Source: Sulfurimonas sp.
GTDB taxonomy: Bacteria > Campylobacterota > Campylobacteria > Campylobacterales > Sulfurimonadaceae
Length of the DNA stretch: 12,555 bases
Direction: 5' to 3'
NCBI GenBank assembly: GCA_030646745.1
Contig: JAUSKV010000223.1
Location: 1 to 12,555 of the forward strand
The position numbers were made by a program, and so were the translations under genes. Under the pieces are notes generated by a model. It was not told where the DNA came from, made no database searches, and worked only from the letters and a program-made list of their open reading frames with translations. How positions within the stretch are numbered: position 1 is the stretch's first letter; each line of letters starts with the position of its first letter. Positions 336-12,555 of the stretch are shown one piece after another.

Positions 336-371
336 AAACTACTCTATTTTACTTTATTATAAAAGTAGTTT
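336..371 (-). promoter_or_regulatory. Possible pgi promoter/hairpin at the galU 3' end
   Basis: The 8-bp perfect inverted repeat AAACTACT (336-343) and AGTAGTTT (364-371) brackets a 20-base AT-rich loop that holds the galU stop codon. The loop edge contains TATAAT on the minus strand (361-356), which would place a transcript start about 48 bases before pgi. There is no convincing T-run after the stem, so termination is doubtful. It could be a weak internal promoter or chance in AT-rich DNA. Confidence 0.25.
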
Positions 372-1183
372 GTAGCCTCTACGAAGCCATCTACACTTCC
401 ACAATCAAATCTTTTACCGTTAAATTTATAAGCGATTACTTTGCCCTTTTTTGCCTGAGCGAGAAGTGCATCTGTTATTTGAATCTCTCCGCCTTTTCCG
501 GGTTTTGTCTCTCGAATGATGTCAAATATATCAGGCGTCAATATATATCTTCCAATAATTGCTAGGTTTGAAGGAGCGTCTGCAGGTTCCGGTTTTTCAA
601 CCATGTCCGTTACTCTCACAATTGATTTTTCTATCTCTTCTCCTGCAATTACACCATACTTATTACTGTCTTGCATCGGTATCTCTTCAACTGCTACGAT
701 TGAACATTTGTATTTTTCGTACAACTCTACCATTTGAGCCAAAACTGAGTCACCACCCTCATTATCGCACAAATCGTCTGCCAAAATAACGGCAAACGGC
801 TCATTCCCTATAAGTGTTTCTCCGCAAAGTATAGCATGACCCAGTCCCTTCATCTCTATCTGTCTAGTGTATGAAAAAGTACAGCTTGTTATAACTTTTC
901 TTATTTCTGTTAAATAATGCTCTTTTGAAGTCCCTTTTATCTGGTGCTCAAGTTCATAAGAGATGTCAAAATGATCTTCAATTGCTCTTTTACCGCGACC
1001 TGTTACTATTGCCATTGTGTCTAGTCCGGCACTTATCGCCTCTTCAACACCATACTGCAAAAGCGGTTTCGTAAGAACAGGTAACATTTCCTTAGGAATT
1101 GCTTTGGTAGCCGGTAAAAATCTTGTTCCATAACCTGCAGCTGGGAAAAGACATTTTCTAATTATTTTTCTATCTTTTGGCAT
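344..1183 (-). CDS. galU: UTP--glucose-1-phosphate uridylyltransferase
   Basis: Makes UDP-glucose from UTP and glucose-1-phosphate, the activated sugar for surface glycans and for UDP-galactose. The 279-residue protein is the normal length for epsilonproteobacterial GalU. The nucleotide-binding signature GYGTRFLPATKAIPKEMLP lies at residues 17-35. The metal-binding aspartates are in ADDLCDNEGG (about 135-144). MVEKP, near residue 195, and the GGEIQITDAL segment before the C-terminus are characteristic of GalU and separate it from RfbA-type dTDP-glucose enzymes. The start is ATG with AAGTAAGG seven bases upstream. Three TATAAT boxes in a tandem repeat lie just upstream, so galU probably has its own promoter besides any read-through from pglB. 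Sugar specificity was not tested. Confidence 0.93.
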   Translation of the reverse strand: MPKDRKIIRKCLFPAAGYGTRFLPATKAIPKEMLPVLTKPLLQYGVEEAISAGLDTMAIVTGRGKRAIEDHFDISYELEHQIKGTSKEHYLTEIRKVITSCTFSYTRQIEMKGLGHAILCGETLIGNEPFAVILADDLCDNEGGDSVLAQMVELYEKYKCSIVAVEEIPMQDSNKYGVIAGEEIEKSIVRVTDMVEKPEPADAPSNLAIIGRYILTPDIFDIIRETKPGKGGEIQITDALLAQAKKGKVIAYKFNGKRFDCGSVDGFVEATNYFYNKVK

Positions 1184-1216
1184 TAATTATCCTTACTTCT
1201 TAAAATGATTCAGTTT

Positions 1217-1260
1217 ATTATTATACCTTAAATTATTATACCTTAAATTATTATACCTTG
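1217..1260. repeat. Three-copy 15-bp tandem repeat between pglB and galU
   Basis: A 15-bp unit is repeated at 1217-1230, 1232-1245 and 1247-1260. Read on the minus strand, the unit is AAGGTATAATAATTT. The copy farthest from galU overlaps the last codons and stop of pglB (K-V-stop), so extra copies add nothing to the protein. Each copy carries TATAAT directed toward galU. Confidence 0.9.
1220..1225 (-). promoter_or_regulatory. Putative galU -10 box (nearest of three)
   Basis: A perfect TATAAT on the minus strand, 36 bases before the galU ATG, would start transcription near position 1213 and give a leader of about 30 bases that includes the AAGG ribosome site. Identical boxes lie 15 and 30 bases further upstream (1240-1235 and 1255-1250). 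No clear -35 box is seen, which is usual for sigma-70 promoters of Campylobacterota. Confidence 0.5.
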
Positions 1261-3368
1261 AGTTTGTACACCTTGGCATGTGGAGTTGCAATAACCTTTT
1301 CAAAAAGTGTTTTGTCATACTCTTCTAAGACCATCAGCTGTATATAAAGAGAGTTGTATGTTTTATCATCTATCACTAAAAAAGTTTTGTAATCTGCCAT
1401 ATAAATCACATTCAAATACCCATTGTAATCTAACATCTGAACACTTTTCTGAAGCTCCATATTCGCATCATAAGAAGTTTTCACGAACCTTTTTACCGGA
1501 ACACTTTTAGTGCCAATTTTTATACTCGACTCTTTTTTGCTAAGAGATATTCCACTTCCTAACTCTATCGCATTTTGTGTTTCCGAAAATCCTCTGCTTA
1601 TAAAGAAAAAGGGTGCTGCCTGCTTTTCTCCATTCATCAAATTTATATATGAAAAGGCTGTTACAGTCGGGTAAATATCTAACATTCTGTATGGCAGATA
1701 GAAGTAGATACCATGCGTTTTCTCCGGCAGATGAATATCTGTGGCAAGTGAAGCTAAAAAATCATTCGTATCTTTAAATCCATAATCTTTTGTCATCTGC
1801 TCAATGTTTGTGAATGTTATCAGATTCTTATCTTTAGACTCTTCTGCTTTTTTGAATGTCTTTTCTGTGTATTCAACATCCAATCTTGCCATTTTTGCTG
1901 AAATCTGCTGAGGATTTGAGAGCATAAAACTAACTGGGAAATTTGATTCACCTCCATGTTTTCCACCGTCAATTAGCGTTTTTACATCCGTGTAGTATCG
2001 CAAAGGATAACCATAATCCCACCAAGAAATTATATAATCTTCTCTATCTAATTTTGTTTTTAATTTATCTAGTACTTGCACTTCATCCGCATTAAATACC
2101 GTCGGGACTTTGTAAGATTTTACATGCTCGATATTTGGATATAAAATAGCCAACGTAAAAGCTGCCATGCTAAGATATCTCAGTTTTGCATTGGGTATTC
2201 TTTGTGAAAGTTCGGTGATAAGAAATGCAACTCCGAAAGCCAAAACAGGAACTGCATATATGGTAAATCTCAGTCCTCCAACGCTCGCCAAAAAACCAAG
2301 CCCTATCATAGGAAGCGCAAAAAGCATAATTTTATGTCTATACGCCAAATAAGCAAAGCCAAGAAGTGATAAAATAAATGTCACTACATGCCCGCTTATT
2401 CGGTCTGCAAAGGTACTAAACGGAATCTGCCCTGCTTCACGAACCGTCTGCATAACAGAGTAAAAGTGAAGTTTAAGCCCAGTCTCTCCGACACTCACTG
2501 CATCTTTAAAAACATACCCTTTTAACTGAGACCAAATCGGGTCAAATCCACCGGTTGCAAAAAATGCTATGACCGAAATAGCTAAAATATGGTAGATATA
2601 TTTTTGAAATCTCTCCTCTTTAAAAAGGAAAAAAGCTGCTAAAACAAGAGGAAATCTAATAAAGATATCCAAATTTATCATGGCAAACATCATAATTGCC
2701 AAAAGTTTATAGTTGTACAAATTTTTTCTCTCATATACTAGAGTAAATAAGAGTATCAAACCAAAAAATGAAAATTCCAAAGAGTAACTTTGAGCATACC
2801 ACCATCTATAAGCCAAAATGTCAATCGCCGTGATAAGCAGATATTTATCTTCATTCGTTTTTATAGCCCAAATAATAGACCAGAGCAAAAACATCGGCAA
2901 TACAATGTTGAGCATGTCGGTATCGTAGTAGCCAATCATGGTACGGTTATAGTAGCTGTGCCCTATCGAAGCCAAAAGTGCCGCAATAAAACCCATCTCT
3001 AAGTTATCAATACTTCTTGCAATCAAAATTACCGGAATAACAATTAAAGAGCTTAAAAAAACCGGCATGTAAAAGATAATGGTCTCAAAAGAGAGTGGCA
3101 AAATCTTTGCAAAAAATGCCGTAAGCATCGCATTTGCATCATTTATAGGGGAAAGGTCATTTGCTTGGTGAATTCCACTGAGAATATCTCTAGCCCCCTC
3201 GGCGTAATAGTAGCCGTCATTCGTGTTAATCATAAACTGCCCATTAAATTTAAAGGCTTCAACATCAGCAAACTGATAAGCCCAAATCATACGAACGACA
3301 ACTGAAAATAGAAATGCGATAAATATATACGCGAGGGTTAGTTTTGTCTCATTTCTTATAGTGTTCAA
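1251..3368 (-). CDS. pglB: PglB-type oligosaccharyltransferase (STT3 family)
   Basis: Membrane enzyme that transfers a lipid-linked oligosaccharide to asparagine in D/E-X-N-X-S/T sequons on the periplasmic side. At 705 residues it is close to Campylobacter PglB (about 713). The N-terminal two thirds is a multi-pass membrane region and the C-terminal part is a soluble domain. Metal/catalytic residues are visible: D51 in INTNDGYYYAEGARD, D149 and D151 in GYYDTDML, and E311 in TVREAG, the TIXE-type loop. The sequon-binding WWDYG motif begins at W449. The start is TTG, three bases after the stop of the glycosyltransferase gene and preceded by AAAGGA. An in-frame stop lies just upstream, and the next ATG (residue 27) would cut the first membrane helix, so TTG is preferred. 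Known PglB enzymes work with pgl glycan genes, most of which are not in this window. Confidence 0.93.
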   Translation of the reverse strand: MNTIRNETKLTLAYIFIAFLFSVVVRMIWAYQFADVEAFKFNGQFMINTNDGYYYAEGARDILSGIHQANDLSPINDANAMLTAFFAKILPLSFETIIFYMPVFLSSLIVIPVILIARSIDNLEMGFIAALLASIGHSYYNRTMIGYYDTDMLNIVLPMFLLWSIIWAIKTNEDKYLLITAIDILAYRWWYAQSYSLEFSFFGLILLFTLVYERKNLYNYKLLAIMMFAMINLDIFIRFPLVLAAFFLFKEERFQKYIYHILAISVIAFFATGGFDPIWSQLKGYVFKDAVSVGETGLKLHFYSVMQTVREAGQIPFSTFADRISGHVVTFILSLLGFAYLAYRHKIMLFALPMIGLGFLASVGGLRFTIYAVPVLAFGVAFLITELSQRIPNAKLRYLSMAAFTLAILYPNIEHVKSYKVPTVFNADEVQVLDKLKTKLDREDYIISWWDYGYPLRYYTDVKTLIDGGKHGGESNFPVSFMLSNPQQISAKMARLDVEYTEKTFKKAEESKDKNLITFTNIEQMTKDYGFKDTNDFLASLATDIHLPEKTHGIYFYLPYRMLDIYPTVTAFSYINLMNGEKQAAPFFFISRGFSETQNAIELGSGISLSKKESSIKIGTKSVPVKRFVKTSYDANMELQKSVQMLDYNGYLNVIYMADYKTFLVIDDKTYNSLYIQLMVLEEYDKTLFEKVIATPHAKVYKLKV
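1275..1284 (+). repeat. GGCATGTGGA motif copy 1
   Basis: Exact copy of the dispersed 10-mer, inside the end of pglB, where it encodes part of T-P-H-A-K. Confidence 0.75.
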
Positions 3369-3371
3369 CTT

Positions 3372-4190
3372 TTAATCCTTTAATGTTTCATAAAATTTTA
3401 TTTTTTGATTATATTCACTTATCTCTGAAACCCTATCATACTTGATAGCACCTTTGAGAAGTAATTTATATTTGTGTAAAAGAGTTTCAATAATTAACTC
3501 TTTCTTTGTAACTTCAAACTTTAGCAGCTTCTCCAAAGCGACAACTCTAAACCTATCCATACCCCAATGTTTCAGACTCAACTGGTCATCATTTCCGCCA
3601 TATTTAGTAATAAGTTTTTCATCAATCAGCCCGATTAAATTTACACATGCCACTCTCAGCCACAAATCGTAATCTTCACAAACCTCTAAATTTTCATCAA
3701 AAAATCCCACTTCTTCCAATAATTTTTTATGAACTAAAGCAGCAGATGGAGCAATAATGCAGTGAGAGAGGCACTCAGCAAAAATAGCACCGCCCACTTT
3801 GTGAAACTTCTTAGCCATCTTCACCTCGATGCCATCTCTTATCCACTTCTCATCCGTGTAACTCATAAGGCATTCTGGATTTTGCTCATGAAATTCCACT
3901 TGTTTTTTGAGTTTATCCACATGCCACGCATCATCCGAATCCAAAAATGCAATCCACTGGCATGTGGAATTTTTTATGCCTAAATTTCTTGCACTTGAAA
4001 CACCTGCATTTTTTTGATAAATATATTTGGCATACGGAAATTGTTTTGTAATTTGTGAGGTATTATCGGTAGAGCCGTCATCGATAATGATAACTTCGCT
4101 CGGCATGTGGGATTGTAAGTAAACCGAGATTAAAGCTCTTTGTAAAACTTCATAACGATTATATGTCGGAATTACAACCGTTATATCCAT
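3372..4190 (-). CDS. Family 2 glycosyltransferase (GT-A fold)
   Basis: Cytoplasmic or membrane-associated inverting glycosyltransferase; donor and acceptor are unknown. The 272-residue protein begins MDITVVIPTYNR, the standard GT2 nucleotide-binding strand. DDGS at 37-40 and the DXD-like DSDD at 84-87 bind the nucleotide-sugar and metal. EDYDLWLR at 172-179 carries the likely catalytic base region. There is no obvious membrane segment. The ATG lies three bases after the mqnE stop, and pglB begins three bases after its own stop, so all three are probably translated from one message. The position directly before pglB suggests it helps build the glycan that PglB transfers, but this is inference. 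The fold does not identify which sugar is added. Confidence 0.85.
   Translation of the reverse strand: MDITVVIPTYNRYEVLQRALISVYLQSHMPSEVIIIDDGSTDNTSQITKQFPYAKYIYQKNAGVSSARNLGIKNSTCQWIAFLDSDDAWHVDKLKKQVEFHEQNPECLMSYTDEKWIRDGIEVKMAKKFHKVGGAIFAECLSHCIIAPSAALVHKKLLEEVGFFDENLEVCEDYDLWLRVACVNLIGLIDEKLITKYGGNDDQLSLKHWGMDRFRVVALEKLLKFEVTKKELIIETLLHKYKLLLKGAIKYDRVSEISEYNQKIKFYETLKD
3916..3925 (-). repeat. GGCATGTGGA motif copy 2 (inverted)
   Basis: Exact copy on the minus strand inside the glycosyltransferase gene, encoding part of W-H-V-D. With copy 3 it forms an 11-bp inverted repeat. Confidence 0.75.
3959..3968 (+). repeat. GGCATGTGGA motif copy 3
   Basis: Exact copy inside the glycosyltransferase gene, in a different reading frame from copy 2 (here encoding N-S-T-C-Q). 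The two face each other with a 31-base spacer. Confidence 0.75.
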
Positions 4191-4193
4191 CCT

Positions 4194-5255
4194 CTACCAA
4201 ACCTTGATTTCGTTATAAATACTGTCTCGCTCAACAGGCGTAAATCCGCTGTTTTTGATTAACCCAACGAACTCTTCAAGGTTTACACCGTTTGCACTCT
4301 TTGCACCTGCAGCGGAGTTTATCGACTCTTTTTCAATTGTTCCATCGAGGTCATTTGCCCCAAACTCTTGAGCGACCAAAGCAAGATTTACAGTCGAAGT
4401 CACCCAGTACGCTTTTAAATGCGGTACATTATCGAGCACAATTCGACTCACCGCCATCGTTTTTAAAATCTCATTTGCGGTAATTGGAGCTTCTATTTTT
4501 AGGTAGTTATTCTCTGTCTGATACACAAGCGGAATAAAGCAGTTAAAACCTCCCGTTTTATCCTGCAATTCACGAATACGCATCATGTGGTCAATGCGGT
4601 TTGCTCTGCTCTCTACATGTCCAAAAAGCATGGTTACATTACTCTTTTTGCCTCGCTCATGCCACTTCTGGTGAATCTCGAGCCACTGCTCTGAGGTAAC
4701 TTTGCCCTTGCAGATGTAATCTCGTACCGTCTCATCAAAAATTTCGGCACCGCCCCCAGGCATAGAATCAACACCGTTTGCAACCATCAAATCCAAAATC
4801 TCATCATACGTTTTGCCGTAATGTCGCGCCAAAAAATCCACCTCTGCCGCAGTCAAAGCTTTGACATGCAGATGCGGATAAGCGGTTTTAATCTTTTTGA
4901 ATATCTCCAGATACCACTCAAGCCCCGTCTCAGGATTATGTGCAGAAACGATATGCACCTCTTTAATCCCGCGACTCTCGATATCTTTGACAATCTCCAT
5001 AATCTGTTCATGGCTCATCGTGTAGGGATTTGGATTTTTTCTATTTGCGGAGTAAGCACAAAATTTACAAACATCCGCACACACATTAGTCGGATTGATA
5101 TGGCGGTTAATATTGAAGTATGTTTTTTTGCCATGGAGTGCTTTTCTTTTCGCATCCGCCAACTCGCCAAGTTCAAAGAAGTCCATCTCGTAAAGAGCAA
5201 GCGCCTCTTCAAAATTTATTCTGTTTTCCGATGCTATTTTCTCGTTCAAATTCAT
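4194..5255 (-). CDS. mqnE: Aminofutalosine synthase (radical SAM, menaquinone biosynthesis)
   Basis: Adds an adenosyl radical to 3-(1-carboxyvinyloxy)benzoate to give 6-amino-6-deoxyfutalosine, an early step of the futalosine route to menaquinone, the respiratory quinone of Campylobacterota. The 353-residue length is typical. The radical-SAM cluster ligands are C59, C63 and C66 (CADVCKFC). HIVSAHNPETGLEWYLE and VKALTAAEVDFLA are typical of MqnE and distinguish it from MqnC and the related F420-synthesis enzymes CofG/CofH. The start is ATG, 24 bases after the kinase stop, with only a weak GCGAG-type ribosome site, so it may be coupled to the gene before it. No other menaquinone gene is in the window. 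Confidence 0.9.
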   Translation of the reverse strand: MNLNEKIASENRINFEEALALYEMDFFELGELADAKRKALHGKKTYFNINRHINPTNVCADVCKFCAYSANRKNPNPYTMSHEQIMEIVKDIESRGIKEVHIVSAHNPETGLEWYLEIFKKIKTAYPHLHVKALTAAEVDFLARHYGKTYDEILDLMVANGVDSMPGGGAEIFDETVRDYICKGKVTSEQWLEIHQKWHERGKKSNVTMLFGHVESRANRIDHMMRIRELQDKTGGFNCFIPLVYQTENNYLKIEAPITANEILKTMAVSRIVLDNVPHLKAYWVTSTVNLALVAQEFGANDLDGTIEKESINSAAGAKSANGVNLEEFVGLIKNSGFTPVERDSIYNEIKVW

Positions 5256-5279
5256 TTAATCTCGCTATTTATCTTTATT

Positions 5280-6842
5280 TTAAAGTCCCGGTGCTTTCCA
5301 CATTGAGGTCGTGATATTATCATCTACCAACTTTAATTGCACTTCATATGCTCTTCTCCAACGCTCTTTTATCTCTTGATACTTCACAAAATATTCCATG
5401 TTCGGAATGAACTCTTTTTCCCAAACAACCAACTCTTTTGCGGCATGTGAAAGTGAATCATATATTCCAACACCCACTCCCGCCGCCATTGCAGTTCCCA
5501 GAGCCGTTGCTTCCGTAACGCGAGGAATTTTCACCCTGCATCCTGTCACATCCGCCAAAATTTGCGACCAAAGTTTACCGCGACTCGCACCTCCGGCAAA
5601 AACTATTTCGTCTATTTGCACACCCGTGAATGCTCTGATTTTTTCAAGATTTATACCTGAGACAATACACGCATTCTCCTGCAAACTTCTAAACATCGAA
5701 GCACGGTTACAGATTTGAGGGTCGAGTGAAAGGTTCAAAAAACTAGGAGCGGCATGGTACCATTTGCCATACTTCATAGAGTCTGAAAATATCGGGATAA
5801 TGCCGTGTGAACCGACGGGGATTTTAGAAGCTTTTTCTTCCAAAACTTCGTAAGTGTCGATGCCTCTTTTCTCTGCTTCTAGTTTTTCCGTTTCACAAAA
5901 AGCATCCCGAAACCATCGCATAATGAGACCGCTAAAAAAGGTAATTCCCTCCGCTTGAGAGAGGTTTGGCACGGCATGTGGATTGACGCGGATTGCCATA
6001 TCTTTTGGCGGCAGAGTATCGCTCGAAATATTCACAACCTGTTGCCAAAACGAACCACCCAAAATAGCTACTTGACCAATTTCAACCACGCCCAAACCGA
6101 CACTTCCAAGCCCAACATCACCGCCGCCCAAAACAACTTTTGTCTGCATGGATAAACCTGTTTCATCAGAAGCTTTTTCGCTCACACTTCCCAAAAGCGT
6201 ACCCACTTCATAGCATGCGGGAAATATGTCATCTTTAAGTCCAACGCGTTTGCACATTTCCACATGCCAATCACGATTTGCCAAAGAAAAAATTCCCGTC
6301 GTACCGCCGTTGCTCGGGTCTGTCGCTATCACTCCGCTAAGACGCGCCAAAATCCAATCCCCGATCATAGAGATTTTTGCAACTCTCTCATAAATCTCAG
6401 GTTTGTTGTTTTTAAGCCACAAAATCCGAGGAATTGCACCCAAAGCAAATGTCTGCCCCGAGAGTGCATAAAACTCCTCTTCAATCCCGACAAAATTTTC
6501 TTTGAGATATTTTACCTCGTGCGAAGCTCTCGCATCCACATTTGCAACTGCCCAAAGCTCCATACCATCAGCGTCATAAAGCACAATTCCCTCACGCATA
6601 CTTGTTGCACTCAGAGCGATTATGTCCTCACCTTTGAGATTTGCTTTTTGCAAAGATTCTCTAATACATCCACATGCCAAACCCCAATTCGTTTCACAAT
6701 CAAAACTCATAGAATTCGCCACACCAGCCTCTTCCAAATGCGTCCACTCTTTTTGAGCGACGGATATTTGATTGCCAAGTGTATCAAAAATCACCGCACG
6801 GATACTTCCCGTTCCTGCGTCTATTGCCATTAAATATTGCAC
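5280..6842 (-). CDS. lsrK: LsrK-type autoinducer-2 kinase (FGGY family)
   Basis: FGGY carbohydrate kinase. LsrK phosphorylates the quorum signal AI-2 (open-chain DPD) in the cytoplasm, trapping it. The 520-residue protein resembles enterobacterial LsrK, as I recall it, from end to end: YLMAIDAGTGSIRAVIFD at 3-20, SMREGIVLYD at 81-90, NVDARA at 101-106, GGSFWQQVVN at 262-271, RWFRDAFC at 309-316, WYHAAPSFLNLS, and the ending TTSMWKAPGL. D242 in GGGDVGLG is the expected catalytic base. The start is GTG with AAAGGAT seven bases before it; the next ATG, 12 bases on, would be too far from that site. GC is clearly higher than in the two genes just upstream. The substrate could instead be another ketose, since FGGY specificity shifts easily and no Lsr transporter or LsrR is present here. 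Confidence 0.8.
   Translation of the reverse strand: MQYLMAIDAGTGSIRAVIFDTLGNQISVAQKEWTHLEEAGVANSMSFDCETNWGLACGCIRESLQKANLKGEDIIALSATSMREGIVLYDADGMELWAVANVDARASHEVKYLKENFVGIEEEFYALSGQTFALGAIPRILWLKNNKPEIYERVAKISMIGDWILARLSGVIATDPSNGGTTGIFSLANRDWHVEMCKRVGLKDDIFPACYEVGTLLGSVSEKASDETGLSMQTKVVLGGGDVGLGSVGLGVVEIGQVAILGGSFWQQVVNISSDTLPPKDMAIRVNPHAVPNLSQAEGITFFSGLIMRWFRDAFCETEKLEAEKRGIDTYEVLEEKASKIPVGSHGIIPIFSDSMKYGKWYHAAPSFLNLSLDPQICNRASMFRSLQENACIVSGINLEKIRAFTGVQIDEIVFAGGASRGKLWSQILADVTGCRVKIPRVTEATALGTAMAAGVGVGIYDSLSHAAKELVVWEKEFIPNMEYFVKYQEIKERWRRAYEVQLKLVDDNITTSMWKAPGL
5973..5982 (+). repeat. GGCATGTGGA motif copy 4
   Basis: Exact copy inside the kinase gene, encoding part of N-P-H-A-V. Confidence 0.75.
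6259..6268 (-). repeat. GGCATGTGGA motif copy 5
   Basis: Exact copy on the minus strand inside the kinase gene, encoding part of W-H-V-E. Confidence 0.75.
6669..6678 (-). repeat. GGCATGTGGA motif copy 6
   Basis: Exact copy on the minus strand inside the kinase gene, in another frame (L-A-C-G-C). Confidence 0.75.
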
Positions 6843-6871
6843 TGTTTTATCCTTTGCGAAAAAATACTTTT

Positions 6872-7444
6872 CTATTGATTGAATAAATTGTTTAGTTTCT
6901 GTTTGAGTTCGTCAAAGTTTGGATGAGAAAAGTCATACGGAGCATTAGGGTAGGCTTTTTTATAAATTTCATTTAATACACTTTTATGATTTTCTTTGGA
7001 CTTAAACTCGGAACAATCTAAAAAAGTTTCTATGCATTTTTTTTGTTTTATTGGTATAGTTGAAAGGATTAATGATTCCAAATAGCCATCTTTTGTTTGT
7101 GGGTTACATGTAACATAAATATCTGCTATGTCTGATAAAGACAACTTGATGAGAACATTGTTCAATTCATTTTTTGTATTTTCAAACCCACCAGACACAC
7201 TATCATTTGCTTCATAGTCAGCATCAACTACAAACAAAATTTTGCTAATCAACTCTTCTTCTATTTGTAATTTTAACTCAGCATATTTTGTATCTTCAAT
7301 TTTAAAAAAATTACTTTTAGTTCCAAAGCCAAAAAATTCAACTTTATCTATGTCATGCCCTAAATTTTCAATCAAAAGTTTTAACAGTTCATTATCATTT
7401 GTTTTTTTAGAATTTCCTTCATGAAGTATGGCAACCTTTACCAT
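6872..7444 (-). CDS. Toprim-like protein, partner of the AAA ATPase
   Basis: A 190-residue protein with features of a small Toprim nuclease/primase fold: an early hydrophobic strand ending in a glutamate (VAILHEG, E9) and a later strand ending in a D-X-D pair (ILFVVDADYE, D74 and D76), the usual metal-binding layout. It resembles the DUF3226/DUF4435 type of stand-alone Toprim protein, though the exact family is uncertain. The ATG overlaps the ATPase stop by seven bases (ATGGTAA), so the two are translationally coupled. In OLD, Gabija and PARIS systems an ATPase of this class pairs with a Toprim nuclease, fused or separate, for phage defence. That role is inferred here from architecture. The AT-rich composition shared with the ATPase suggests acquisition as a unit. 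It ends 29 bases before the kinase start. Confidence 0.7.
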   Translation of the reverse strand: MVKVAILHEGNSKKTNDNELLKLLIENLGHDIDKVEFFGFGTKSNFFKIEDTKYAELKLQIEEELISKILFVVDADYEANDSVSGGFENTKNELNNVLIKLSLSDIADIYVTCNPQTKDGYLESLILSTIPIKQKKCIETFLDCSEFKSKENHKSVLNEIYKKAYPNAPYDFSHPNFDELKQKLNNLFNQ

Positions 7445-8397
7445 CCTCTTACCTCATGATCATCATCAATGCTATCTTGCAACATTTCAAAATCTCTAAC
7501 ACCAGCTTTTATACTGCCATCATTTAATCTGCTCATTTTTATATAGCTAATATCTTTATCTTCAAGCTTTTTAGAAACTCTAGCATACGAGTCTATACAC
7601 TCTTTTGAGTGAGTTGTGGCAAAAACTTGTACATTTAATTTTTTAGAAACTTCTAAGATAATATTCCAAATTTCATCAAGTTGTGTGTAGTGAATTCCAT
7701 TATCTATCTCATCAATAAACAAATATCCATTCTCACACTTATATAGAGAAGTAACTATTGAGATAAGATGTCTCACTCCATCTCCAAATTCTGTAATCTC
7801 AAGATATTCATCTCCAATTTTACATTGAGGTTTTTCATCTATAATTTTAAAAGCTTCTATTTTATCATCGAATTTATTAAGAATATCATTTAAAAAATAT
7901 TCGTCATCTTTTTTTTGTATCGCTGAATAATTACTGATAATTTGACTATTAAATAAACCAAAATTATCAATAAATTCAATACTGCTTATCGATTCTGATT
8001 CATATGAAAAATTATTAATATTTACTTTGACATATTGTTTATTAAAATCAAAAACATACTGTTTTATTCCTTCTAAATCTTCTATACTAAATGATGCTAA
8101 ATTAATATTTGATTTTGTAAATATTTTATTACTTTGTTCAATGAATACTTTAGCACTTTTACTAGCACCATTTAATATATTTAAGTTTTCTCTCATGAAT
8201 TTAATACCGTATAAGGAACCAACAAAAGATTTTAAACTTTTCGCTTCTACATTAACATAACAAGCCTCCATAAAAGCCGTCTTACCAACATTATTTTTCC
8301 CGCCAATGAGATTTACTCTTTTAAATCCATCCGCTTTGAAATCTTTGAAGCACTTAAAATCTTTTATCTCTATCTTTGTCAATAAATGTTTATCCAT
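7438..8397 (-). CDS. AAA15/OLD-like ABC-type ATPase
   Basis: A 319-residue ATPase of the ABC/SMC-like AAA15 class. It starts with LTKIEIKDFKCFKDF, typical of RecF/OLD-type ATPases. Walker A is GGKNNVGKT (32-40), the signature region EFGDGVRH (203-210), Walker B YLFIDE (225-230), and the H-loop histidine lies in TTHS (261-264). All ATPase motifs appear intact. There is no C-terminal Toprim domain; that function seems to be the next, overlapping gene. A strong AAGGAG (8411-8406) lies eight bases before the ATG. GC is very low: hand-counted 60-base lines at 7861, 7921 and 8041 give about 17-22 percent, against 45-60 percent in two kinase lines. The likely role is the sensor/ATPase half of a defence pair; a housekeeping role is less likely given the isolated, foreign-looking cassette. 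Confidence 0.8.
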   Translation of the reverse strand: MDKHLLTKIEIKDFKCFKDFKADGFKRVNLIGGKNNVGKTAFMEACYVNVEAKSLKSFVGSLYGIKFMRENLNILNGASKSAKVFIEQSNKIFTKSNINLASFSIEDLEGIKQYVFDFNKQYVKVNINNFSYESESISSIEFIDNFGLFNSQIISNYSAIQKKDDEYFLNDILNKFDDKIEAFKIIDEKPQCKIGDEYLEITEFGDGVRHLISIVTSLYKCENGYLFIDEIDNGIHYTQLDEIWNIILEVSKKLNVQVFATTHSKECIDSYARVSKKLEDKDISYIKMSRLNDGSIKAGVRDFEMLQDSIDDDHEVRGW

Positions 8398-8409
8398 AAT
8401 TGCGACTCC

Positions 8410-8490
8410 TTACAAAATATCTATTCTAAATTTTTCAGTTATTCTATCAAAATCTGCTTCACAAACAGCGTTATGAGTGAATTTTGATTT
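8410..8490 (-). other. 26-codon open stretch in frame after the aldolase stop
   Basis: After the aldolase TGA (8493-8491) the same frame stays open for 26 codons and ends in a TAA at 8412-8410, just before the ATPase ribosome site. It reads like protein (KSKFTHNAVCEAD, then FDRITEKFRIDIL) but has no usual start codon. It may be the tail of a gene carried in with the ATPase cassette, a read-through extension, or chance. Confidence 0.3.
8423..8428 (-). promoter_or_regulatory. Possible -10 box for the ATPase/Toprim pair
   Basis: TAGAAT on the minus strand matches TATAAT at five of six positions. It lies 25 bases before the ATPase ATG and would leave the AAGGAG ribosome site in the leader. It would give the cassette its own transcription, but the surrounding DNA is so AT-rich that chance is a real possibility. 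Confidence 0.3.
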
Positions 8491-9672
8491 TCACTTCTTC
8501 AACTTCGCCTGTTCCAACTCCCAATACTCCATCTCAAAACTATCCTTTAAACTTATACTTTTGTATCCGCCTAGTTTGTCGGCTCGAAGAACCGCCATCA
8601 TGGTGTGTCCTACAATGTCGTTTATGATGTTTGCCTCTTGCTCAGAATTTGCGCATGCAACGATTCCGTACTCTTTTACGACTATATAGTTTGGTGCAGG
8701 GTTGAGACAGATTTCATTTTTTGCAAACTTTTTAAAATAGTTTTCGTACTCATTTTTGTAGTTTTCTATCGCTTCTTCGATATTTTCATCTTCTAAAATC
8801 ATAGGGATTCTTTTTGTTCTTATGATATGTTCAGGGGTTAGAATGCCTCTTGTTGCGAACTCTTTTAGGTCTGAATGCGAAGCATAGTTTTTTGCCAAGT
8901 CGCTTCTGTTTTCTTTTAGAATTACTTCATACCCTTTCTCTTTTGAGAGGAGTTGTTGGAGTTTGTCGATATCAAAGAACTCAGGCTTTGGCGTGGCTGT
9001 GCTTGTGAACTCCACTTTCGCATGTTTCTCCAAAAACGCCTCGGCATATGTCACTGATTCTATCATCTTGTCATACGATTTTTTAGCATCATCATCAAAG
9101 GTAAAAATGCCGTGATTGTGCAGAATTATCCCATCAACTGCGTTCCAATCCAGCCCTTGCGTCATTTCATAAATCGTTCGTGCGAGAATAAATCCGGGCA
9201 TCACATAGGGAACGATTAAAAAGTTTGGAAACACTTTTTCTATATTTTCTATTCCAAACATAGAATTGGAAATAGTTACGACTGCATCGGCATGCGTATG
9301 GTCAACAAATTTATAGGGAATAAGTGCATGGAGTATTGCTTCAACGGATGGATTTGGAGCGGTTTTGTCAATCATAGCATCTTTCTGACCCGCTACCATG
9401 TCACTGTCGCAAAGCTCTTTTAATTGTGCCATCTTCAAAAGTGTTTTCATCTTCACAGGCGAAAAACCCTCCGCTTTTATGCTTACCAAATCCCAACCGC
9501 TTCCCTTGACAAAAAGTATCTCTTCGTCCTCAACCATACTTTTTACAGAGGTATTTCCGCCACCATGCAAGACTAATTCATCACTTCTTCCCAACAGATT
9601 GGATGTATAAACCCGTAACTCTAAATCAGTTTGAAAACTTTTTGCCTCTTCATATAACCATAAATTCTTCAA
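8491..9672 (-). CDS. Class II (zinc) aldolase, stand-alone N-terminal half of the RhaAD type
   Basis: Class II aldolase/adducin-fold enzyme, which would reversibly cleave a ketose phosphate using bound metal. The 393 residues match the aldolase half of the roughly 680-residue bifunctional aldolase/short-chain dehydrogenases. Metal ligands appear to be H125 and H127 (VDHTHAD) and H187 (LHNHG), with E111 (PSVEAILHA) as the likely catalytic acid/base. HGGGNTSVK (36-44) and VKGSGWDL (55-62) form the phosphate-binding region. It ends SFEMEYWELEQAKLKK, just where the dehydrogenase half would begin, and no dehydrogenase follows. The start is TTG, three bases after the ABM stop, with AGGAT overlapping that stop; no in-frame ATG occurs before M75. 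Its neighbours suggest it acts on a product of the LsrK-like kinase. Substrate unknown. Confidence 0.85.
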   Translation of the reverse strand: MKNLWLYEEAKSFQTDLELRVYTSNLLGRSDELVLHGGGNTSVKSMVEDEEILFVKGSGWDLVSIKAEGFSPVKMKTLLKMAQLKELCDSDMVAGQKDAMIDKTAPNPSVEAILHALIPYKFVDHTHADAVVTISNSMFGIENIEKVFPNFLIVPYVMPGFILARTIYEMTQGLDWNAVDGIILHNHGIFTFDDDAKKSYDKMIESVTYAEAFLEKHAKVEFTSTATPKPEFFDIDKLQQLLSKEKGYEVILKENRSDLAKNYASHSDLKEFATRGILTPEHIIRTKRIPMILEDENIEEAIENYKNEYENYFKKFAKNEICLNPAPNYIVVKEYGIVACANSEQEANIINDIVGHTMMAVLRADKLGGYKSISLKDSFEMEYWELEQAKLKK

Positions 9673-9675
9673 AAC

Positions 9676-9963
9676 TTATCCTAAAACTTCTAGTTCATCT
9701 GTATATTTTTCTAAACAGTATGGCTCGTAACTTGATTTATAGACTGCGTAGTGCGCCGAAGCTTTGTGTCCGTCCAGTGCTTTTTCATCCCTCCAACTCT
9801 CATACGCCATAAATTTTTGCGGCTTATTCTCATACTGAAAAATTTCATAGAAGATACAGCCATCTTCCGCCTTGCTTGGTGCTACCATTGCACTTAGAAG
9901 CTCTTTCATCATCTCTATCCCATCCGGTTTTGCTATAAAAGTCACTCTTTTTATAATCGCCAT
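9676..9963 (-). CDS. ABM-fold monooxygenase/isomerase (LsrG-like candidate)
   Basis: A 95-residue protein of the antibiotic-biosynthesis-monooxygenase fold, a dimeric ferredoxin-like barrel. The family includes quinol monooxygenases such as YgiN, and LsrG, which isomerises phospho-AI-2. The layout fits: an opening strand IIKRVTFIAKPDG, then EDGCIFYEIFQ (33-43), FMAYESWRDEKALDGH (51-66) and H71 in ASAHY. E. coli LsrG has the same order of EEG, YEAYKDEDAV and H-H elements, but general ABM proteins share much of this, so LsrG function is inferred mainly from the nearby LsrK-type kinase. The start is ATG with GGAG six bases upstream. It is the first gene of the leftward group and has a good promoter in front. 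Confidence 0.8.
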   Translation of the reverse strand: MAIIKRVTFIAKPDGIEMMKELLSAMVAPSKAEDGCIFYEIFQYENKPQKFMAYESWRDEKALDGHKASAHYAVYKSSYEPYCLEKYTDELEVLG

Positions 9964-9999
9964 TTTTTGCTCCGTAGTTGTTCAATTTTTAATCTTTGG

Positions 10000-10005
10000 A
10001 TTATA
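10000..10005 (-). promoter_or_regulatory. Extended -10 promoter for the leftward gene group
   Basis: TATAAT on the minus strand, preceded by TGC, gives an extended -10 element (TGCTATAAT) 36 bases before the ABM start codon. The predicted leader carries the GGAG ribosome site. It could drive the ABM and aldolase genes and possibly everything to their left. Confidence 0.55.
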
Positions 10006-10025
10006 GCAAATTTCCTCACTTTGAC

Positions 10026-10031
10026 TATAAT
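10026..10031 (+). promoter_or_regulatory. glnD -10 promoter box
   Basis: A perfect TATAAT 28 bases before the glnD ATG, with start of transcription expected near 10038 and an AAGAG ribosome site at 10046-10050, nine bases before the ATG. It stands back to back with the leftward promoter, 20 bases apart. Confidence 0.5.
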
Positions 10032-10059
10032 GTTGTAAAACTATTAAGAGACTGAAATT

Positions 10060-12555
10060 ATGGATTTACTGCTGCAAATAGAAGATATAATAGAAAAAAA
10101 CGGCTCCGATTTTGAGCTTTCAAAGCTTTTTAAAGCCTACATCAATGAGTACAAGACTTCACTCCCAAAGCTCTTTGAAAGCTCGCAAGGCAAGGATTTT
10201 TTGGTAAAACATACAAAAAAGCTAGACTCCATACTCTCTTTGATGTACAAGGTAACGCTTAGAAGAATTTTTGGAAACTACATTCCCATGAGCAGCTCCA
10301 TCCCCATTGCAATAGTTGCACTCGGAAGTTATGGACGGGAGCAGTTGTGTGTTCACAGCGACATAGATTTACTTATTGTTTATGAAAAAGTGGATGGCTA
10401 CAATACGCAGCTTATCATAGAAAAACTCTTCTATTTGGCACTAGATGCTGGGCTAAAACTGGGTCACAGAGTACATGAAACAAACGATTTGTTCAAAGCA
10501 AGCGATGAGGATATAACCATCCGCACATCTCTGATGGAGTCAAGACTTATCACAGGTTCGCCTTACACTTGGCATGCAACGCAAAAACAACTCAATAAAA
10601 TTCGTCTTTACAAACAAAAAGAGTTTATTCTCGCCAAAATCGAAGAAGCGCAAATTAGAAGAAAAAAATACCCGACCTCTATGCAGCCGAATATAAAAGA
10701 GAGTGTGGGTGGGCTTCGCGATACGCAGCTTCTTTTTTGGGTAGCACAGACAATTTACGGGATTTCAAATCTAAGAGAATTAAGCCAGATTTTATTTAGC
10801 GATGAGGAGTATAAAGAATACCGCATTGCACTGGAACTTCTCTTTCGCGTTAGGAGTGCTCTGCACCTCATCACAAACAAACAGGAGGATAGACTTCTCT
10901 TTGAACTGATGCCGCAAGTAAGTGCCATGCTGGGCTTTAAAAATGAGAAAAAAATGGCTTCTAAGGTGCTTGAAGCACAGTGGCGCATAAGCAACTTTAC
11001 GCAGATATTTGTAAAGAAGATGGTACGACCTTTTATTGTAGAGAAACAAAATATCAGTAAATTTAAGTCACACCGCCTGAGAAAGGGGATTTATGAGTAT
11101 GATTCAAGGCTTTTCGCCTCTTTTAACCTTAAAATTCAACCCATAAACTCACTTTTGGAGCTTTTAGTTTCACTCCCTGACAAGGAGTACCACTTTGATG
11201 CAGGTTTTTTAAACCAGTTTACCTACACAAAAATTTCCCATCCTCTCAATCAAAGAACTTATACACTCATAAAAGAGCTTCTAAAGAAAAAAAATATGTA
11301 CTGCTTTTTGAAACTTTTTTATGATGCCGGCATACTCCATGAAATATTTTCAAGTTTTAGAAAAGTGATGCACCTTCCGCAGTTTGACGGCTACCACACC
11401 TATCCGGTGGACATTCACTCCATTAAATGTGTAGAAGCGTTAGAGAATATCAAAGAGCCTTTCATTCAAAAACTTTATGACGAGCTGAGCGAAGAGGAAA
11501 AACTGCTTTTAAAAGTGGCAGTACTTCTGCATGACTCAGGAAAGGGTCGTAAACAAGACCACAGCGAAGTGGGTGCAAAGCTCATTGTTCCTTTCGCAAA
11601 ACATTTAAAGCTCAAACCGGAGTCGATTGAGCGAGCCGTCACCCTTGTAAAACAACATGTTCTTATGAGCAGTGTCGCTTTTAAAGAGAACATCCACAAT
11701 GAAAACACACTCTACAATTTTATGTCAAATATTCATGATGACAAAAATCTGAAACTTCTCTACATTCTTACCTATGCTGATATAAACGGGGTGGCGGGGG
11801 AAACATATAACTCTTTTAACTCCAAACTGCTTTTTGATTTGTACAAAAGTGCCTTGGAAGTTTCACAAAACAGTGACAGGATTACAGACGCTACAAAAAG
11901 ATTGAATATAGAAAAAAAAGTTCAGCACCAAGAGGAGTTTAAAGCCCTGCCAAAACTTTTACAAACAAAAGTTTTACGCATAGAATCAAATCTTTTCTTT
12001 TTTAAACACTCAATCCCCGACATAATCTGCATAGCGACCAAAGCAAATGAGACCAAAGAGTACAGTTACAGCATCAAAGCTGTGGATTCGCTCACCATAG
12101 AGATTTACAGAAAAATTCCTCTCAACATAGGATATCTGCTAGCAACACTTGCACATTTGGATGTCGGCTCCATGGAGATTATCACTCTCTTTGACAATGT
12201 GAAATATTTTAAAATTGAGTTTGTTAAAAATGTTGAGGGGGATGAACTTTTAGAGGTCGAAGAGATTATCAAAAAAGCCTTCGATATGTCTTTGCATGTG
12301 GAGCTAAAAAACATTAAAATAACAAGAAAAGAGATACATATAGATTGCGAGCATTCGCTCACACATGCCGAACTTACTGTTCATACAACAAATCAAAGAG
12401 GTCTTTTGGCGTATATCATGAACTGTTTTGAAGAGTTGAAAATCAACATAGTAACCGCCAAAATTCACACCACAAAAAACAGAGTCAGAGATAGTTTTTT
12501 AATGGAGAAACAAAACGATATATGCAATAATGTCGAGCAAATTTATAAATTATTA
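10060..12555 (+). CDS. glnD: PII uridylyltransferase/uridylyl-removing enzyme (3' end outside window)
   Basis: Senses glutamine and adds or removes UMP on PII proteins, controlling nitrogen assimilation. The frame is open for 832 codons to the window edge with no stop; family members are about 850-890 residues, so little is missing. The nucleotidyltransferase site is GSYGREQL (89-96) with DID at 101-103. NIKESVGGLRD, starting near residue 211, is a hallmark of GlnD. The HD domain for UMP removal contains FDGYHTYPVDIHS, HDSGKG (H491, D492) and a later YADINGV. The C-terminus has two ACT regions: a divergent one (about 677-745) and a clear one with NQRGLL (about 769-822). The ATG follows an AAGAG site and a TATAAT box. 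It is transcribed away from the other genes and seems functionally unrelated to them. Confidence 0.92.
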   Translation, partial: MDLLLQIEDIIEKNGSDFELSKLFKAYINEYKTSLPKLFESSQGKDFLVKHTKKLDSILSLMYKVTLRRIFGNYIPMSSSIPIAIVALGSYGREQLCVHSDIDLLIVYEKVDGYNTQLIIEKLFYLALDAGLKLGHRVHETNDLFKASDEDITIRTSLMESRLITGSPYTWHATQKQLNKIRLYKQKEFILAKIEEAQIRRKKYPTSMQPNIKESVGGLRDTQLLFWVAQTIYGISNLRELSQILFSDEEYKEYRIALELLFRVRSALHLITNKQEDRLLFELMPQVSAMLGFKNEKKMASKVLEAQWRISNFTQIFVKKMVRPFIVEKQNISKFKSHRLRKGIYEYDSRLFASFNLKIQPINSLLELLVSLPDKEYHFDAGFLNQFTYTKISHPLNQRTYTLIKELLKKKNMYCFLKLFYDAGILHEIFSSFRKVMHLPQFDGYHTYPVDIHSIKCVEALENIKEPFIQKLYDELSEEEKLLLKVAVLLHDSGKGRKQDHSEVGAKLIVPFAKHLKLKPESIERAVTLVKQHVLMSSVAFKENIHNENTLYNFMSNIHDDKNLKLLYILTYADINGVAGETYNSFNSKLLFDLYKSALEVSQNSDRITDATKRLNIEKKVQHQEEFKALPKLLQTKVLRIESNLFFFKHSIPDIICIATKANETKEYSYSIKAVDSLTIEIYRKIPLNIGYLLATLAHLDVGSMEIITLFDNVKYFKIEFVKNVEGDELLEVEEIIKKAFDMSLHVELKNIKITRKEIHIDCEHSLTHAELTVHTTNQRGLLAYIMNCFEELKINIVTAKIHTTKNRVRDSFLMEKQNDICNNVEQIYKLL

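Follow-up and report, generated by a model that had tools for sequence, protein, structure and literature searches.

A ten-base word that is probably a DNA-uptake-type sequence in a subset of Sulfurimonas, and its apparent decay in one subclade

The window, i.e., the whole 12,555-nt stretch of DNA analysed here, belongs to a Sulfurimonas genome (G000) assembled to 2.15 Mb in 390 contigs and 74% complete. On its minus strand, a predicted nucleotidyltransferase, a PglB/STT3-type oligosaccharyltransferase and an adjoining family 2 glycosyltransferase (positions 344-4190) make up what looks like an N-glycosylation-type locus, and positions 6872-8397, also on the minus strand, hold an AT-rich cassette of two genes located between conserved genes. 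This cassette would encode a small partner and an AAA ATPase, the latter scoring with the defence models AbiLi and PDC-M38A. The window also contains, counting both strands, ten copies of the word GGCATGTGGA, six exact and four with one mismatch, at precisely the coordinates that the first-pass annotation had given, as well as relics with two or three mismatches. These sites were compared in seven relatives. Loci named in this work were paired with genomes by their identical coordinates, as follows: L031 with G112, L032 with G156, L033 with G084, L034 with G111, L035 with G108, L039 with G083, L042 with G077 and L093 with G096.

1275..1284, plus strand: exact GGCATGTGGA; exact in L034, L035 and L042 of the 7 relatives compared
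1726..1735, plus strand: three-mismatch relic GGCAGATGAA; exact in L033, L034, L039 and L042
3642..3651, minus strand: one-mismatch copy GGCATGTGTA; exact in L033, L034, L039 and L042
3916..3925, minus strand: exact GGCATGTGGA; exact in L032, L033, L034, L035 and L039, one mismatch in L031 and L042
3959..3968, plus strand: exact GGCATGTGGA; exact in L031, L033, L034 and L042
4029..4038, plus strand: two-mismatch relic GGCATACGGA; exact in L033, L034 and L039
4102..4111, plus strand: one-mismatch copy GGCATGTGGG; identical variant in L031, L033, L034 and L039
4612..4621, minus strand: two-mismatch relic GACATGTAGA; exact in 7/7 relatives aligned there
5442..5451, plus strand: one-mismatch copy GGCATGTGAA; exact in L033 only
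5973..5982, plus strand: exact GGCATGTGGA; exact in L032, L033 and L034
6259..6268, minus strand: exact GGCATGTGGA; exact in L033 and L039
6669..6678, minus strand: exact GGCATGTGGA; exact in L033, L034 and L042
12293..12302, plus strand: one-mismatch copy TGCATGTGGA; exact in L034 and L035; L031 and L032 share the variant

The clearest relic is that at 4612, mutated at two bases in the window and exact in every relative aligned, and the GGCATGTGGG variant at 4102 is common to four relatives and, thus, is not a window-specific loss. When shuffled 200 times with its dinucleotides preserved, the window yielded 0.43 exact or one-mismatch matches on average and never more than 3, compared with the 10 real ones. 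A third-order Markov background predicts 0.02 exact copies in the window, the same value as the first-pass estimate of about 0.02. The window is a dense patch for the word, with 6 exact copies vs 0.8 expected from the mean density of the genome. The absence of the word from the ATPase/Toprim cassette had been taken as a sign of recent acquisition. This idea was rejected: a 1.5-kb stretch should contain about 0.1 copies at the density of the genome and no more than 0.8 at that of the window, which leaves the absence uninformative and without weight.

The earlier suspicion of a genome-wide signal holds, since the enrichment is not limited to the window: G000 contains 140 exact copies (73 on the plus and 67 on the minus strand) and none of the reversed word used as control, and at up to one mismatch the counts are 510 vs 34. 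It also extends to relatives. Among 135 other genomes of the genus, GGCATGTGGA is dense in 18 (31-1302 exact copies) and occurs at most 13 times in the other 117, the reversed word being found 0 to 4 times per genome. Outside the genus, the maximum is 11 copies among 366 genomes, in a phylum sample of 397 genomes of which 31 belong to the genus. Most of the genomes compared are draft assemblies. In a scan of viral contigs, there was one match per contig among the matches listed (80 contigs, of 120 stretches).

The anatomy of the word was analysed in 300 kb of the carrier genome G083, where genes were long open frames chosen by a simple script. GGCATGTGGA is the top 10-mer of this sequence, with 112 copies observed vs 0.65 expected from a Markov-type background, and 33 further copies have one mismatch, 27 of them at position 1. 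An extended flanking consensus, which the first-pass annotation had thought worth seeking, was found in the form TTTT-GGCATGTGGA-AAT. Seven named loci have T-rich bases before the word and AAT after it, and the 14-mer TTGGCATGTGGAAA occurs in 53-383 copies in 7/7 genomes, with 0 copies of its control. Most of the 112 copies in G083 are located in predicted open frames (89) or at their edges (4), and 19 lie between frames, where the word is enriched given that 6.3% of the sequence is outside frames (P = 7e-5). Copies also form inverted pairs within 30 bp (6 vs 0.65 expected), of which 5/6 begin 2-20 bases past a predicted gene end, and the four pairs that were folded give predicted hairpins of -19.4 to -25.5 kcal/mol. 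Such pairs at gene ends match a feature of known uptake words, i.e., the DNA uptake sequence (DUS) of Neisseriaceae and the uptake signal sequence (USS) of Pasteurellaceae, with a putative role as terminators. No regular spacing of the copies was found in the 300 kb.

The sites are strongly conserved in position across species. In the mqnE neighbourhood of seven active species, aligned pairwise in both directions at an overall identity of 72-85%, the partner also has the exact word at 216 of the 326 aligned exact sites vs 25.9 expected from other 10-mers with six G+C, and at the competence-cluster locus of five active species the figure is 66 of 86 vs 5.7 expected, although these comparisons share species and are not independent. 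At the competence locus, 0/11 site comparisons involving G083 keep the site, a result that is counted against an uptake reading.

Other members of the genus carry other words. Word counts in 80 named loci revealed YTTACATGTAAR in some members, and the second word TTACATGTAA, a perfect palindrome that has CATGT in common with GGCATGTGGA, reaches at least 40 copies in 17/135 genus genomes, with up to 425. The 8-mer TACATGTA is kept in 70/104 comparisons of six carrier loci vs 19.3 expected, and in 14/101 comparisons of five non-carrier loci vs 15.1 expected. The second word is also enriched between genes (11/47 copies, while 7.2% of the sequence lies outside frames). Overall, TTACATGTAA behaves like GGCATGTGGA in other members and is a candidate dialect. 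On the mqnE tree, with word labels set by density in each locus, GGCATGTGGA requires three changes and the second word four. A mutual exclusion of the two words was considered and set aside as weak, since only G155 exceeds both cut-offs (36 and 43 copies) and about 2 such double carriers are expected by chance.

Further repeated words occur in the genus. A third dense word, AAACGCAG, is present in L052, L053, L058, L059, L065 and L096. It is strand-biased (72 plus and 37 minus over seven loci), mostly sense to genes and conserved (198/364 vs 53.9 expected), so that a polar signal of Chi type seems a better match for it than a sequence for uptake. In L056 and L055, another word, built around CGTCATTC, is repeated; its shared flanks are longer and it resembles a repeat element. 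L082 has the word variant RCATGTGGA, with 15 copies of CATGTGGA in 21 kb and only 2 of the full ten-base word.

In the mqnE tree, which represents one gene in a group that may recombine, the window forms a supported trio with L031 and L032 (100/96), nested in a supported six-row clade with L033-L035 (100/98). Exact counts amount to 140, 141 and 183 in the trio vs 1298, 1302 and 840 in the sisters L033-L035. Of the sites that are exact in active species, the trio keeps the exact word in 52/203 cases at the mqnE neighbourhood (17.9 expected) and in 10/60 at the competence locus (3.8 expected), a retention above expectation that indicates that some memory of the sites remains. In addition, most of the sites at which the trio retains the exact word are old, 52/70 being exact in active species vs 5.6 expected. 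Within the trio, retention is 8/23 at mqnE (7.0 expected) and 0/3 at the competence locus (0.9 expected), i.e., conservation of word sites does not go beyond background.

The distribution of mismatches was also determined, in stretches some of which were picked for their genes. The excess per 100 kb at 0/1/2 mismatches is 7/25/60 in G112, 12/20/80 in G156 and 1/16/53 in G000 (counted in 81 kb outside both the window and the contigs that had been selected for the word). The corresponding values are 69/37/45 in G111, 80/16/45 in G084, 40/17/25 in G108, 37/10/17 in G083 and 52/12/34 in G096. Mismatches in G000 fall at 8/10 positions of the word, and members of the trio differ from one another at the same site. 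The lineage of the window appears to be losing the word, its copies being decaying relics that are mostly mutated. No clear replacement for GGCATGTGGA was found in 206 kb plus 76.6 kb of G000, the latter taken without regard to the word.

Competence genes are widespread in the genus. ComEC was found in 33/38 chosen genomes by family search and in 126/135 genus genomes by protein search, including 78/79 of those at least 90% complete. A conserved cluster contains a secretin, two ATPases (a small AAA ATPase and one of T2SSE type) and a protein of T2SSF type, and we take it to be Cts-like from the gene order of Campylobacter. Its small ATPase was detected in 38/42 entries, equivalent to 30/34 distinct genomes because eight entries repeat listed genomes. 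Those without a match are three incomplete genomes and G065, which is complete and has 77 copies of the second word, an observation that counts against an uptake reading. Regarding the linkage to competence genes that the first-pass annotation proposed to check, ComEC and the Cts-like cluster are present in carriers, but they are also present in genomes with neither word, so their presence is not discriminating and serves as context, not as proof.

The state of comEC differs among the three species of the window's lineage. In G112, an AT-rich insertion of 8136 bases (L414:3226-11361, contig C15) splits comEC, the two parts of which lie on a single contig with about 8.1 kb between them. The insertion contains a TnsA-like endonuclease gene (Pfam E = 1.7e-12), is bounded on both sides by the 5-base target duplication GTCTC and has similar inverted termini, features that make it Tn7-like. 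In G156, comEC was not found and neither was its neighbour yihY, so this absence may be an assembly gap. The comEC frame of G000 is full length, though the word sites of this genome are decayed, so that decay cannot be put down to comEC loss alone. With comEC intact in G000 and possibly gapped in G156, the link between decay and comEC loss is thus firm in one species only. Stops within comEC matches were flagged in G013, G071 and G153, genomes rich in neither word.

Some other features of these regions were recorded. Besides a pilin-like gene, the cargo of the G112 insertion includes genes for a radical SAM/B12 protein and for a protein of uracil-DNA glycosylase type. No GGCATGTGGA at up to one mismatch was found in the 8.1 kb of the insertion. 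The 4.9 kb of flanks likewise lack the word, and nothing on depletion of the word in mobile DNA therefore follows from this element. In G000, yihY is in two overlapping pieces (contig C281:2074-2909; L412, L413), with a stop present and the reading spread over two frames.

We consider it probable that GGCATGTGGA serves part of the genus Sulfurimonas as a DNA-uptake-type sequence, with a bias that has now stopped in the subclade of the window. The uptake-type sequence favoured by the first-pass annotation is supported by the computed density, strand balance, inverted pairs, positional conservation, clade restriction, candidate sister word and competence genes, to which the decay is added here. 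From these patterns, we infer uptake as the cause, a receptor that reads the word, and a lost preference as the cause of decay. At the cell surface or in the periplasm, a component of the Cts-like competence machine, which resembles type II secretion systems, would bind the word, and DNA fragments bearing the word would be taken up and recombined more often. Incoming DNA from kin would carry the word and recombination would restore or spread copies. The bias would in this way add and keep copies genome-wide, in any strand, frame or gene. Elsewhere in the genus this role would fall to at least one further word, TTACATGTAA, which also has CATGT as its core, and in the three-species subclade of the window the bias would have stopped, leaving copies to drift like ordinary sequence.

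The main rival to uptake bias is a protein that binds DNA throughout the chromosome, with a role in the nucleoid, segregation, replication or transcription control, and that has GGCATGTGGA as its site, selection acting on each site and decay following loss of the protein. Such a protein fits the positional conservation, the clade-wise loss and the hairpin-forming copies after genes, and the second word is a perfect palindrome, like many protein sites. However, a genome may hold up to 1302 copies, most copies in G083 are genic (89/112), and strand preference and regular spacing are both absent. The number of genic copies, the indifference to strand and the paired copies after genes make this explanation less likely, and we judge it unlikely overall. 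A second possibility is a HIP1-like iterated element, also raised by the first-pass annotation, in which biased mutation, repair or methylation, independent of uptake, would maintain the word. HIP1 of cyanobacteria is the palindromic octamer GCGATCGC. Both words are iterated, strand-balanced and clade-restricted. However, GGCATGTGGA is not palindromic and, thus, fits less well. It does not contain GCGATCGC, it forms inverted pairs after genes above chance, and its flanking preference reaches past ten bases, all of which renders a HIP1-like element quite improbable.

Genome-wide over-representation would also fit a polar signal of the Chi or KOPS kind. Nevertheless, strand counts in G083 are 41/44 and 13/14, and along a contig of 220 kb the strands are near balance in each 20-kb block while GC skew is positive in 10/11 blocks. 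There is, thus, no replication polarity, as the first-pass annotation had argued from the occurrence of both orientations, and in contrast with the strand-biased AAACGCAG of the same genus, so a polar signal is highly improbable. As little credit can be given to the idea that the copies are left over from a dispersed mobile repeat of REP or MITE type, since, despite the existence of inverted pairs, similarity between copies stops within about 4 bases of the word, diverged species have sites at the same positions, and genic copies in G083 encode many peptides (including LACG, PHA and STCQ types), in agreement with the different peptides noted earlier for the window.

Established uptake words are known from only two bacterial families. 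The Neisseriaceae DUS, GCCGTCTGAA and its dialects, resembles the Sulfurimonas word in its ten-base core, density, strand balance, and inverted pairs after genes, and possibly also in having related words in related species. However, the word is unrelated and the phylum differs, one putative sister word in Sulfurimonas is palindromic, and the DUS is read by the type IV pilus protein ComP, whereas the candidate reader in Sulfurimonas is the Cts-like machine. The Pasteurellaceae USS, with the core AAGTGCGGT, is likewise a short core with a softer flanking preference, a high copy number, both strands used and inverted pairs. Its word is unrelated, its second AT-rich tract is not seen around the Sulfurimonas word, and the Sulfurimonas flanks span about 4 bases before and 3 after. 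Campylobacter, in the same phylum, recognises its own DNA by methylation (CtsM-type) of a short, frequent site. The Cts-type uptake machine and a preference for own DNA, which is proposed for Sulfurimonas, would be shared, whereas the mark there is methylation and in Sulfurimonas it would be the enriched ten-base word.

On balance, we lean towards the broader view that Sulfurimonas evolved its own sequence-based self-recognition for uptake, apart from Neisseriaceae and Pasteurellaceae, with at least two CATGT dialects, one of them palindromic. The subclade of the window would then record the natural death of such a system, with hundreds of sites caught in mid-decay and, in one sister, a Tn7-like element interrupting comEC. 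If true, the independent origin, the use of different words by related species and the loss of the bias in one lineage would together constitute a natural experiment on how uptake words arise, change and vanish. Moreover, the words offer a handle for the genetic tractability of the sulfur oxidisers of this genus and for finding the receptor.

As for the receptor, none that tracks the word by similarity was found among 19 proteins in up to 15 genomes, the highest ratio in this comparison being 1.15, for comEC. In a search for a ComP-type receptor, nine pilin-like proteins matched only general pilin, pseudopilin and ComG-type models, in libraries that may lack a ComP model. Two other clusters were observed in these genomes. 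L247 and L250 (G060 and G011, both rich in TTACATGTAA) contain a second Cts-like cluster with its own pilins, and close matches to its ATPase occur only in G011, G073, G118 and G060 among the 34 distinct genomes. L241 (G083), L243 (G000) and L249 (G011) contain a type II secretion cluster with GspG- and GspD-type proteins, which is present in several GGCATGTGGA carriers and in some other genomes.
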